The notes beneath the pieces are model-generated. The model did not search any database. It saw only the letters and a list, made by a program, of their open reading frames with translations, and had not been told where the DNA came from. This document shows positions 33,096 through 37,087 of a DNA stretch of 64,000 nt, piece by piece. This DNA is from Rhodococcus sp. SBT000017 (GTDB lineage: Bacteria; Actinomycetota; Actinomycetes; Mycobacteriales; Mycobacteriaceae): the NCBI RefSeq assembly GCF_003688915.1, contig NZ_REFU01000001.1:4030001-4094000 (forward strand). Reading direction: 5' to 3'. Position numbers and translations under genes: made by a program. Position 1 is the stretch's first letter, and every line of letters starts with the position of its first letter.

Positions 33096-35405
33096 GTGGC
33101 CCTCTACCGGAAGTACCGTCCTGCGACGTTCGCCGAGGTCGTCGGTCAGGAGCACGTCACCGAGCCGATCAGCGTGGCGTTGGACAGCAACAGAATCAAC
33201 CACGCCTACCTCTTCTCCGGGCCGCGCGGCTGCGGAAAGACCTCCTCGGCGCGCATCCTCGCCCGATCGCTGAACTGCGCCGAAGGTCCGACATCGACGC
33301 CCTGCGGCGTCTGCAACTCCTGCGTCGCCCTCGCCCCAGGCGGACCCGGCAACTTCGACGTCGTCGAGATGGACGCGGCCAGCCACGGTGGCGTCGACGA
33401 TGCGCGAGATCTGCGAGACAAGGCCGTGTACGCCCCGGCCGAATCGCGCTACGTCATCTTCATCATCGACGAGGCACACATGGTGACCCCGGCAGGCTTC
33501 AACGCGCTGCTCAAGGTCGTCGAGGAACCGCCCGAGCACCTCGTCTTCATCTTCGCGACCACCGAGCCCGAGAAGGTGCTCCCCACCATCCGCTCGCGTA
33601 CCCACCACTACCCGTTCCGGCTGCTCGCGCCGTCGACGATGCGCGTTCTGCTGGAGAAGATCTGCGGCCAGGAACAGGTCCCGGTCGAGGACGCGGTCTA
33701 CCCGTTGGTCATCCGCGCAGGCGGCGGTTCACCCCGTGACTCGCTCAGCGTCATGGATCAGCTCCTGGCCGGAGCCGGGCCCGAAGGCGTCACGTACCCG
33801 CGCGCACTCTCGCTCCTCGGCGTCACCGACGTCGCACTGATCGACGAAGCCGTCGACGCATTGGCCGCGGGCGACGGAGGCGCACTGTTCGGCACCGTCG
33901 ACAAGGTGATGGACGCGGGCCACGACCCACGCCGCTTCGCCATCGACCTCCTCGATCGCATGCGAGACCTGATCCTGATGAAGGCCGTGCCCGACGCCGG
34001 AGAACGCGGTCTGGTCGACGTGCCGGGCGACGTGCTCGAGCGACTGCGTGACGAAGCCGATCTGCTCGGCTCTGCGACGCTCACTCGCTACGCCGAGATC
34101 GTGCACTCGGGACTCGGCGAGATGCGCGGTGCCACGGCCCCGCGTCTGCTGCTCGAAGTGATGTGCGCCCGCATGCTGCTGCCCTCTGCCTCCGACGCGG
34201 AATCGGCGGTGCTGCAACGACTCGAACGCGTCGAACGCCGCTTGGACGTCACCCTTCCGGCAGGCGAGCAAGCAGCCGTCGCCCAGGCAGCCGCGGATCC
34301 GACGCGACCGCAGCTGCAACCCACCGAAGAGCCCGCACCCTCGGGTCCGGCACCGGTGAGCAAGTTCCAGCGACCGTCGCAACGCCCACCCGCCACCGAG
34401 CCGGCCCCCGCCGCACCAGCTGCGCCCGTAGCGCCCGCACCCGCTGCCTCGATTCCCACACCGGCACCTGAGCCTGCACGGCCCGAGCCGACTCCGACAC
34501 CCGAGCCGACTCCGACACCCGAGCCGACGCCGGAACCCGAGCCCGCTCCGACGCCCGAGCCCGCTCCGACGCCCGAGCCCGCTCCCACGCCCGCACCCGC
34601 ACCCGAGCCGGCCCCGCAACCCGAAGCTGTGCCGGAAGTCGTTCCCGCACAACGAGACTCGGTCCCCGCTGCCTCGGTGGCACACGAGGATTTTCCGCCG
34701 GAGCCCGAGGACGATTACGGCCCCGAGCCGGATCCGGTGTTCGAGTCGGAACCGGAACCCATGGCGGCCCCCGCCGCCGCGTCGAGCGAGCCCGACGCAG
34801 CCGCGGTTCGAGCGGTGTGGTCCGAGGTGCGCACGAAGGTACGAGACCGGAGCCGCACCGTCGAGGTCATGCTCTCCGGTGCCTCGGTGCGCACTGTCGA
34901 GAACGGCACCATCACGCTCGGCCACGACTCGGCACCGTTGGCCAAACGGCTGGAGGAACCCCGCAACGCCGACGTCATTCGCGACGCTCTGCGTGACGTC
35001 TTCGGCGTCGAATGGTCGGTGGTATGCCTGGTCGGTGCGGCGGCACCACCGGAACAGTCATCAGCAAAAAAAGATGAACCGGCAGCGAAACCCGCGTCGC
35101 TGCCGAAGTTCTCGAGGCCGAGCCAGGCAGGGGCTCCCCGTCCCACGTCGGACGGGTTCGGATCAGCGGGCGACGGATCCTCGACCGGCATCGGGGCGGA
35201 CGACATTCCGATACCCGAAGCGCCGGACTATCCCGACGAGCCCGAGCCGATAGGCCCACCGCCGCCGGAGACCCCGGAGGATGAGGAAGAGCTGCTCAAG
35301 GCCGCAGCCGAGCCTGCCGATCCGACGGTTCGCCGCGACCCGGAGACCGTCGCGATGGAGCTGTTGGTCAGCGAACTGGGAGCGGTACCGCTCAAAGAGA
35401 CCTGA
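33096..35405 (+). CDS. dnaX: DNA polymerase III gamma/tau subunit
   Basis: 769-residue clamp-loader ATPase. Walker A is GPRGCGKTSSAR, a Cys4 zinc site includes CGVCNSC, and the DEAH-box Walker B is IIDEAHMV; RSRTHHYPF carries the arginine-finger region. Residues ~420-560 are Pro/Glu-rich (PTPEP repeats). The C-terminal DnaX domain starts at VRAVWSEVR and the protein ends in the conserved AMELLVSELGA tail. I used GTG 33096, giving the family start VALYRKYRP; ATG 33048 overlapping the preceding stop would add 16 residues. An A7 run at 35066 with a downstream stem-loop may produce a short -1 form. Confidence 0.95.
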   Translation: MALYRKYRPATFAEVVGQEHVTEPISVALDSNRINHAYLFSGPRGCGKTSSARILARSLNCAEGPTSTPCGVCNSCVALAPGGPGNFDVVEMDAASHGGVDDARDLRDKAVYAPAESRYVIFIIDEAHMVTPAGFNALLKVVEEPPEHLVFIFATTEPEKVLPTIRSRTHHYPFRLLAPSTMRVLLEKICGQEQVPVEDAVYPLVIRAGGGSPRDSLSVMDQLLAGAGPEGVTYPRALSLLGVTDVALIDEAVDALAAGDGGALFGTVDKVMDAGHDPRRFAIDLLDRMRDLILMKAVPDAGERGLVDVPGDVLERLRDEADLLGSATLTRYAEIVHSGLGEMRGATAPRLLLEVMCARMLLPSASDAESAVLQRLERVERRLDVTLPAGEQAAVAQAAADPTRPQLQPTEEPAPSGPAPVSKFQRPSQRPPATEPAPAAPAAPVAPAPAASIPTPAPEPARPEPTPTPEPTPTPEPTPEPEPAPTPEPAPTPEPAPTPAPAPEPAPQPEAVPEVVPAQRDSVPAASVAHEDFPPEPEDDYGPEPDPVFESEPEPMAAPAAASSEPDAAAVRAVWSEVRTKVRDRSRTVEVMLSGASVRTVENGTITLGHDSAPLAKRLEEPRNADVIRDALRDVFGVEWSVVCLVGAAAPPEQSSAKKDEPAAKPASLPKFSRPSQAGAPRPTSDGFGSAGDGSSTGIGADDIPIPEAPDYPDEPEPIGPPPPETPEDEEELLKAAAEPADPTVRRDPETVAMELLVSELGAVPLKET
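35066..35105 (+). promoter_or_regulatory. candidate programmed -1 frameshift signal in dnaX
   Basis: The zero frame reads GCA AAA AAA GAT GAA, so A35066 AAA AAA is a slippery heptamer. After a -1 slip the next codons are AGA TGA, giving a stop at 35075-35077 and a 660-residue product. A stem CGGCAGCG (35080-35087) / CGCTGCCG (35098-35105) with 10-nt loop begins 7 nt after the heptamer. No strong upstream Shine-Dalgarno stimulator is seen. Confidence 0.6.
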
Positions 35406-35642
35406 TCAGCCGACGGTGAGGTCCTCGTTGTCCGCGAACACCAGGCGGCCACTGTCGAGTGCCACGGCCCAACGCCGTGCCACCGCCCATTCCCGTGAGG
35501 TGGTGTCGGGTGTCTGGACGCCGAAGTCCTCGACGATGGCCCCGGTCTCGTAGGCGTCCTGACCGGCCTTGTCGTCGGTGCCGGTGGAGTGAATGCGTAC
35601 TTTGACGCGAGCGCCCACGGTCAGTTCGTTGTCGGTTTCCAT
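35406..35642 (-). CDS. conserved small hypothetical protein
   Basis: 78-residue soluble protein, no recognised family. It is rich in beta-prone and acidic segments (VGARVKVRIHSTG, GAIVEDFG) and looks like a small barrel. Its stop abuts the dnaX stop with no gap. It has a plausible ATG (35642) preceded by GAAGA. The 233 nt from 35643 to 35875 hold the fadA promoter region; I see no other gene there. Confidence 0.6.
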   Translation of the reverse strand: METDNELTVGARVKVRIHSTGTDDKAGQDAYETGAIVEDFGVQTPDTTSREWAVARRWAVALDSGRLVFADNEDLTVG

Positions 35643-35875
35643 GGAGGGTCTTCTTCCGCGCTCGGTAGATCTGATCTATCGGAGTGTCCCATGCCGACTT
35701 CGTTCAAACCTGAAACTCCGCGTCGGTCATGTAGAACGCTCGTTTCGGTCCTTATGTCGGATCCACCCGCGGCCCTACTGTGGCATGAGCTGAGGTCTGT
35801 CGTGGCCTCGCACCGATGCGGTCGGCCACCACTGCGACCGCGAGAAGAACGAGTATCTGGAAGGAACTGCGCGCT

Positions 35876-37087
35876 GTGACTACAGAGGCATTCATTTATG
35901 AAGCCATCAGGACTCCCCGAGGCAAGGGAAAGAACGGCTCCCTGCATTCGGTGAAGCCGATTTCCCTGGTGACGGGCCTGATCGACGAGCTTCGTCGACG
36001 TTTCCCCGACATGGACGAGAACCGGATCTCCGATCTCATCCTCGGAGTGGTCTCACCCGTCGGAGATCAGGGTGCCGATATCGCGCGCACGGCAGTGCTC
36101 GCAGCGAAGATGCCCGACACCGTCGGCGGCTTCCAGCTCAACCGCTTCTGCGCGTCCGGTCTCGAGGCCGTCAACCTGGCTGCACAGAAGGTGCGCTCGG
36201 GCTGGGACGAGCTCGTCATCGCCGGTGGCGTCGAGTCGATGTCGCGCGTGCCGATGGGCAGCGACGGCGGCGCGTGGGCCATGGACCCCGTCACCAACTA
36301 CGACACCTACTTCGCCCCGCAGGGCATCGGTGCCGATCTCATCGCGACGATCGAGGGGTTCAGCCGCGAAGACGTCGACGCATACGCCGTCCAGTCCCAG
36401 GAGCGCGCCGCAGCGGCGTGGTCCGGTGGCTACTTCGCCAAGTCCGTCGTTCCGGTGACGGATCAGAACGGCCTTCTCATCCTCGATCAGGACGAGCACA
36501 TGCGTCCGGGCACGACGGTCGAGTCCCTCGGCAAGCTGAACCCGGCCTTCACCGGTATCGCGGCCATGGGCGGATTCGACGACGTCGCGCTGCAGAAGTA
36601 CCACTGGGTCGAGAAGATCGATCACGTGCACACCGGCGGCAACAGCTCCGGCATCGTCGACGGCGCAGCACTCGTCCTCGTCGGCAGCGAGCAGGCCGGC
36701 AAGGACCTGAACCTGGTGCCGAGGGCGCGCATCGTCGCGACCGCCACCAGTGGTGCCGACACGACCATCATGCTGACCGGGCCCACCCCGGCGTCGAAGA
36801 AGGTTCTCGCAACCGCGGGCCTGACCGTCGACGACATCGATCTTTTCGAGCTCAACGAGGCATTCGCCTCCGTCGTGCTGCGCTTCCAGAAGGATCTGAA
36901 CATCCCGAACGAGAAGCTCAACGTCAACGGCGGTGCCATCGCCATGGGCCACCCGCTGGGAGCAACCGGAGCGATGATCACCGGCACCGTGCTCGACGAG
37001 CTCGAGCGCCGCGGCGGCCGGTACGCCTTGATCACCCTGTGCATCGGCGGCGGCATGGGCGTCGCCACCATCATCGAGCGAGTCTGA
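35876..37087 (+). CDS. fadA: acetyl-CoA acyltransferase (thiolase) of beta-oxidation
   Basis: 403-residue thiolase. Catalytic Cys in [11 protein letters not shown], His in [13 protein letters not shown] and the second Cys in LCIGGGMG. Cleaves 3-ketoacyl-CoA to acetyl-CoA and a shortened acyl-CoA. GTG 35876 follows AAGGA by about 10 nt and gives [14 protein letters not shown]. Nine nt upstream of fadB, forming the trifunctional-complex operon like Rv0859-Rv0860. Confidence 0.93.

Follow-up and report, generated by a model that had tools for sequence, protein, structure and literature searches.

The dnaX gene of Rhodococcus sp. SBT000017 probably carries a programmed −1 ribosomal frameshift signal that makes a gamma-like DnaX and works like the signal of E. 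coli dnaX, a reading to which we give a probability of about two in three from comparison of sequences. The gene lies in the window, by which we mean the whole 64,000-nucleotide stretch of DNA that was analysed. In the proposed mechanism the ribosome would decode AAA AAA with tRNA-Lys(UUU) ahead of a stable hairpin, slip one base back on A_AAA_AAA and, after one further residue (arginine), terminate at a TGA, giving a 660-residue DnaX alongside the 769-residue tau. The short form would keep the ATPase, oligomerisation and KH-like domains but end before the disordered linker and the conserved tail at the C-terminus; if E. coli tau is a guide, it would act as gamma does, loading clamps while tethering no polymerase. 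What the comparison shows is the layout of the site, its conservation within a clade, the synonymous constraint and the likeness to the E. coli element, whereas the occurrence of frameshifting, its frequency and the role of the short form are what we infer.

The dnaX gene and its candidate slippery heptamer

The features on which this reading is based are as follows.

33096..35405, plus strand: dnaX, DNA polymerase III subunit gamma/tau, 769 aa, GTG start (NF005846, 927 bits over residues 2–646; PF13177, PF12169)
34794..35036, plus strand: folded KH-like C-terminal domain, kept in the predicted short form (mean pLDDT above 90 for model residues 11–80; fold matches)
35051..35112, plus strand: alternative three-way fold, GGAAC/GUUCU and UCAUC/GAUGA around A7 plus the main hairpin (prediction only; z −3.04 and z −2.05)
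35064..35120, plus strand: core of synonymous constraint, 19 consecutive invariant degenerate codons (657–675), with a weaker extension to about 35138
35066..35072, plus strand: candidate slippery heptamer A_AAA_AAA, codons 658–659 AAA AAA, in the same phase in every genome having A7
35075..35077, plus strand: TGA, second −1-frame codon after the putative slip, product 660 aa ending QSSAKKR (sequence reading)
35076..35111, plus strand: possible outer 4-bp helix 35076–35079/35108–35111 around a 2-nt bulge (prediction only)
35080..35105, plus strand: predicted hairpin, 9-bp stem 35080–35088/35097–35105, loop 35089–35096 (−16.3 kcal/mol, z −4.75)
35331..35384, plus strand: conserved C-terminal tail RRDPETVAMELLVSELGA, lost from the predicted short form (R, R, D, P, A, E, L and G invariant in 22 aligned sequences)

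Read from the GTG at 33096, the dnaX frame at the site is GCA (35064) AAA AAA GAT GAA. A −1 slip at the A7 would give AGA (35072–35074) followed by TGA (35075–35077), and so 660 residues ending in AKKR as against 769; the frame reading thus bears out both the in-frame heptamer and the truncated product that an earlier note on this DNA had described. The heptamer lies 85% of the way through dnaX and is the only X_XXY_YYZ heptamer in the correct phase within the gene. It is also the one A7 or T7 in the 64-kb window, although its mere presence there is unremarkable, since 23 of 100 shuffles of the window contain at least one (mean 0.30). The whole genome (5.65 Mb) has A7 or A8 at 12 sites (14 overlapping matches). 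When the same 14-residue peptide was encoded with the codon use of the clade, an A7 together with an equally stable fold arose in 13 of 20,000 simulations. Another in-phase sense-strand A7 (L098, G000:C1:2864393-2864399) was seen at codon 453 of a 508-aa stop-to-stop open reading frame, and there the −1 frame closes about 20 codons downstream.

The stimulatory structure of −1 frameshift signals typically lies 5–9 nt downstream of the heptamer, and here the main stem begins 7 nt past it. The site combines three features of a general −1 programmed ribosomal frameshift signal, namely an in-phase heptamer, a stem 7 nt downstream and constraint beyond that of the protein. The earlier note had proposed a perfect 8-bp stem with a 10-nt loop (35080–35087/35098–35105); a strong hairpin at this distance was recovered, with dimensions corrected to 9 bp and 8 nt. 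The predicted fold of 35073–35112 has an energy of −20.2 kcal/mol (z −4.7), and none of 200 shuffles was equally stable. To be set beside the alternative three-way fold listed above is the minus strand of 35045–35140, which gave a fold z of −0.52.

The genome encodes tRNA-Lys with both CUU and UUU anticodons. Tight pairing of the CUU tRNA with AAG should weaken slippage there (PMC5009743), and AAA as the second codon fits with its presence in this genome. In E. coli A_AAA_AAA is reported to be weaker than A_AAA_AAG (PMC5009743), and a transposon cluster with A_AAA_AAA and a stem-loop is described as a proven case of frameshifting (PMC4066793).

Comparison with the E. coli dnaX signal

The local resemblance to the E. 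coli signal, which had been noted earlier, is confirmed by alignment, by database search and by simulation. Aligned with the K-12 dnaX frameshift signal, 38 of 45 columns are identical and in register, and the alignment score was attained by none of 500 codon-shuffled E. coli dnaX sequences. A blastn search of E. coli genomes matched 5335 of 5426, at one place each (5333 chromosomes, 2 plasmids); the 10 best rows and 60 taken at even spacing through the ranked list (84–85% identity, E values of 0.7–9 for 28 Gb) all fell on what is annotated as the DnaX frameshifting element. When two different 86-nt pieces of dnaX were used as queries, they had no match in the same E. coli genomes. Similarity to the K-12 element as high as that observed was reached by 0 of 50,000 terminator-like elements of equal make-up, by 5 of 50,000 sequences with A7, TGA and hairpin, and by 2 of 50,000 encoding the same protein with the A7 fixed.

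Covariance search gives a less emphatic result. The Rfam model of the E. coli element, RF00382, matches 35063–35113 on the plus strand in the right register (model 17–65 of 65) at 12.7 bits (E 0.73), which ranks second among the 7 families, out of 4,227 scanned, whose E value was at most 10. This lies below the gathering score of 35, the K-12 element itself scoring 96.8, and no Rfam match at the site exceeds its own threshold; a 1-kb scan (34800–35800) returned no hit at an E value of 5 or below. A search of plasmid records (7.3 Gb) matched enterobacterial dnaX in 9 records at E 2, but about 40 unrelated records matched at least as well, the best of them through an intergenic stretch of Paracoccus (E 0.01); in a large collection of mixed origin the enterobacterial match thus does not rise above background. 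In a phage collection, two short clones that lack annotation (OR845581.1 and OR851108.1) gave matches on a par with the E. coli dnaX signal and may be host DNA.

The two elements share the gene, the order of parts (GCA AAA AAR, −1 TGA, hairpin), the truncating outcome, which is predicted here, and a similar fold energy (−19.7 kcal/mol, z −2.3, for E. coli). They differ in that the heptamer here is A_AAA_AAA, the spacer is 7 nt rather than 5 nt and the 3′ arm of the stem is different. In addition, E. coli dnaX has the Shine-Dalgarno stimulator AGGGAG, whereas inspection by eye found no Shine-Dalgarno-like sequence 5′ of the heptamer, as had been remarked before. The sites also differ in position along the protein: that of E. 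coli precedes the folded C-terminal domain and the present one follows it, which agrees with the earlier observation of a later site and makes vertical descent of the signal unlikely. As to origin, the signal may have come about by convergence plus luck or by transfer of a short piece; the second of the simulations above points to a likeness to K-12 beyond shared function and composition, and the element may be a transplanted cassette.

Distribution among genomes

While dnaX was found in all 37 genomes of the genus, the A7, −1 stop and hairpin are present in 14 of them. The remaining 23 lack the signal and have a different linker, and because their DnaX is intact without it we consider the signal a clade-level trait. 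Aligning Rhodococcus dnaX genes, as the earlier note had suggested, shows the A run, its phase, the −1 TGA and the stem retained in all 14 A7 genomes, which make up one clade. That note had also taken loss of the signal in relatives with an intact protein as evidence against it, and on this point the result is divided, 14 genomes keeping the signal and 23 missing it. Its hope of covariation in the stem was disappointed: the stem sequence is invariant among the A7 genomes, which makes covariation impossible.

Thirteen of the carriers have an intact dnaX reading frame. In the other, G014 (L077, G014:C1:4285000-4287800), the frame is broken elsewhere, in a Pro/Glu repeat, possibly through sequencing error, and the A7 element is intact. 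The 49 nt starting from the GCA are identical in 13 of the 14, with a single base changed in G033 (GAA to GAT, E-to-D) that leaves the −1 TGA intact. The element is present in the record of R. fascians NBRC 12155 (L009) and absent from that of R. fascians A44A (L017, on the same contig as G004). In a tree built from the 5′ 1260 nt of dnaX the 14 A7 genomes form one group, with low node support (0.41), and the element was likely gained once in the genus.

In 301 genomes of the family, the 101-nt stretch around the site was matched at 96–100% in 11 members of the genus, and 11 further matches were weak and did not cover the A7. We also sampled 41 family genomes, which yielded 30 dnaX loci, of which 22 could be parsed; 19 of these, including 17 complete genes, belonged to other genera. 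Among the 22, the window's own gene was the only one to combine a heptamer made of A or T with a −1 stop close by; none of the 19 outside the genus did so.

Synonymous constraint

The 13 analysable A7 copies of dnaX were aligned to examine synonymous variation, and the site is the most strongly constrained in the gene. Gene-wide, 66% of 726 degenerate codons vary synonymously in these 13 genomes. The longest run of invariant codons is the 19 at 657–675, the next longest in the gene being 8, and shuffling of columns gave a mean longest run of 5.7 and never attained 19 in 20,000 trials. Within codons 657–680 only 1 of 24 is variable, compared with 4 in the lowest windows elsewhere, and in subsets of 7 or 4 divergent genomes none of the 24 varies. 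Third-position divergence among the 14 A7 genomes over the 5′ 1260 nt of dnaX averages 20%, with a maximum of 29%. At the homologous place in 16 sister genomes, a set that leaves aside the 7 more divergent genomes of the genus, no constraint was found (ratio about 1). The nucleotides themselves thus appear to be under selection at the site, and to have come under it together with the arrival of the A7. A search of 5.8 billion sequences found 10 protein clusters that retain SSAKKDEPAAKPASLPKFSRPSQAG; the query words came from the same region, so that clusters without SSAKKDEPAAKPASLPKFSRPSQAG could escape it.

Alternative explanations

On the opposite strand the same nucleotides can be read differently.

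35406..35642, minus strand: convergent 78-aa gene, whose stop codon abuts the dnaX stop; its terminator would, in the rival reading, be the dnaX hairpin plus T7
35066..35111, minus strand: intrinsic-terminator-like hairpin, 3-nt spacer and T7 (rival reading)

According to this alternative, which we think unlikely but a serious rival, hairpin, spacer and T7 form an antisense intrinsic terminator that ends the transcripts of the convergent gene inside dnaX, and the constraint serves termination. It accounts for the same nucleotide constraint as frameshifting does, and the site is the sole terminator-like one found in a scan of 34600–36000, where shuffles are expected to give 0.9. The 78-aa protein had no match in a Pfam search; its gene stands beside dnaX in 28 of 36 genus genomes examined. 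The distance between the two stop codons is 0–12 nt in 13 of 13 A7 genomes measured (G014 left out) as against 47–158 nt in 15 of 16 sister genomes; the convergent gene was not found in the sixteenth sister or in 7 more distant genomes. This is the pattern we would expect if an intragenic hairpin had replaced an intergenic terminator, although the gap changed on the same branch that gained the element, so that the two count as one event. In ten of the 15 sister gaps the predicted fold beats 193 or more of 200 mononucleotide shuffles, while in the other five it is no better than shuffles (14–95 of 200 as stable). Six sister loci (L050, L054, L066, L067, L068 and L069) have very strong inverted repeats of −45 to −70 kcal/mol between dnaX and the convergent gene, similar in wording and perhaps members of a repeated family.

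The site resembles an intrinsic terminator in its minus-strand hairpin followed by T7 and in a convergent neighbour with no intergenic room. It departs from the typical case in that the hairpin stands off the T tract, inside dnaX and about 300 nt past the stop of the neighbour, and is like that of E. coli dnaX. Three of the 12 genomic A7/A8 sites look like hairpin-T7 terminators, but in all three the hairpin abuts the T7, whereas at this site 7 nt separate the T7 from the 9-bp stem, or 3 nt if the bulged outer helix is included. A corynebacterial antisense RNA family with a hairpin-CAUCUUUUU arrangement, ctRNA_pGA1, was weakly matched (E 3.1) and indicates that a short spacer before the U tract does occur in the phylum. 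The base change in G033 breaks the outer helix; an alternative extension is predicted at similar energy (−18.5 vs −18.9), so this change decides little between the readings. If the site is a terminator, the E. coli likeness (0 of 50,000 in the simulation), the −1 TGA and the phase would all be coincidences. The two functions could coexist, and it is conceivable, though again doubtful, that both strands of one 57–75-nt element are used, the sense strand for a −1 signal like that of E. coli, giving tau minus linker and tail, and the other for the terminator of the convergent gene.

Slippage of RNA polymerase, raised by the earlier note on the model of Thermus, would lead to the same 660-aa product: an A added on the A7 would give an mRNA with an extra base ending at the same TGA. 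The A7 is a rare homopolymer in this genome, and Chlorobium phaeobacteroides dnaX, with only seven A, has been argued to use slippage (PMC3711429); that gene is also described as having E. coli-like stimulators (PMC5009743). Thermus thermophilus dnaX likewise has a late A homopolymer, seven-eighths through the gene compared with 85% here, and makes a shorter DnaX (PMC1088944), which is at the same time a precedent for a late site. The Thermus run, however, is A9 and has near stops in both other frames. Here it is A7, shorter than the nine at which avoidance becomes evident in many genomes (PMC1088944), a near stop is found in one frame, and losing one A opens the frame to 35253. Since slippage does not need a conserved downstream hairpin, and since the run is short, with one alternative frame having an immediate stop and a conserved hairpin at a fitting distance, we favour the ribosome over the polymerase and regard transcriptional slippage as very improbable.

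Some other nucleotide-level element, such as a small RNA or a DNA site bound by a protein, or else gene conversion or a recent selective sweep confined to this short stretch, seems to us improbable too, if a little less so than slippage. The constraint runs about 30 nt 3′ of the hairpin, beyond what frameshifting or termination needs, and the lack of an Rfam match above threshold at the site would suit an element of another kind. The family search nevertheless gave one match per genome, which argues against a repeated DNA site, and a sweep would have to span lineages up to 12% apart (dnaX 5′ 1260 nt) yet be confined to some 60–75 nt. Proteolysis of tau, from which Caulobacter makes gamma, similarly yields a short DnaX from the same gene, but is post-translational and involves no nucleotide signal (PMC5009743).

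Ribosomal frameshifting remains the reading we prefer. Counting against it are the sub-threshold RF00382 match, the plasmid background, the missing stimulator, the absence from 23 of 37 genomes and from the 19 parsed genes of other genera, the lack of covariation in the stem, and the ability of the terminator reading to account for the constraint. The report that M. tuberculosis dnaX expressed in E. coli yielded tau only (PMC4731781) counts against it as well.

Significance

A 2012 review places dnaX frameshift signatures in enterobacteria, with Thermus slipping and most other bacteria keeping none (PMC3290774); Vibrio, Neisseria and two-ORF dnaX genes, for example in Chlorobi, were added later (PMC3711429). 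A full-text search, with subscription journals mostly outside its coverage, returned no report of dnaX frameshifting for Rhodococcus and no actinobacterial case in the passages found. If the frameshift reading is right, a gamma-making switch arose, or was transplanted, again in a distant phylum, and removes only linker and tail; the sister species without the signal would then be a natural control for the debated purpose of a tail-less DnaX. If the site is a terminator instead, it would be one that overwrites the codons of a replication gene and mimics a frameshift signal, and a caution for searches that use sequence only.

The predicted short DnaX product

The earlier proposal that the short form would keep the C-terminal domain and lose the tail agrees with the domain positions listed above, the polymerase binding of the tail being an extension from E. 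coli, where the C-terminus of tau binds polymerase alpha (PMC4703070). By analogy the lost tail is plausibly the polymerase-binding tail. It is conserved in most family members sampled and divergent in two loci (L118 and L129). In fold comparison of DnaX residues 563–648 (34782–35039), E. coli tau domain V was outranked by the best matches, which were entries for DnaA domain I and DciA.
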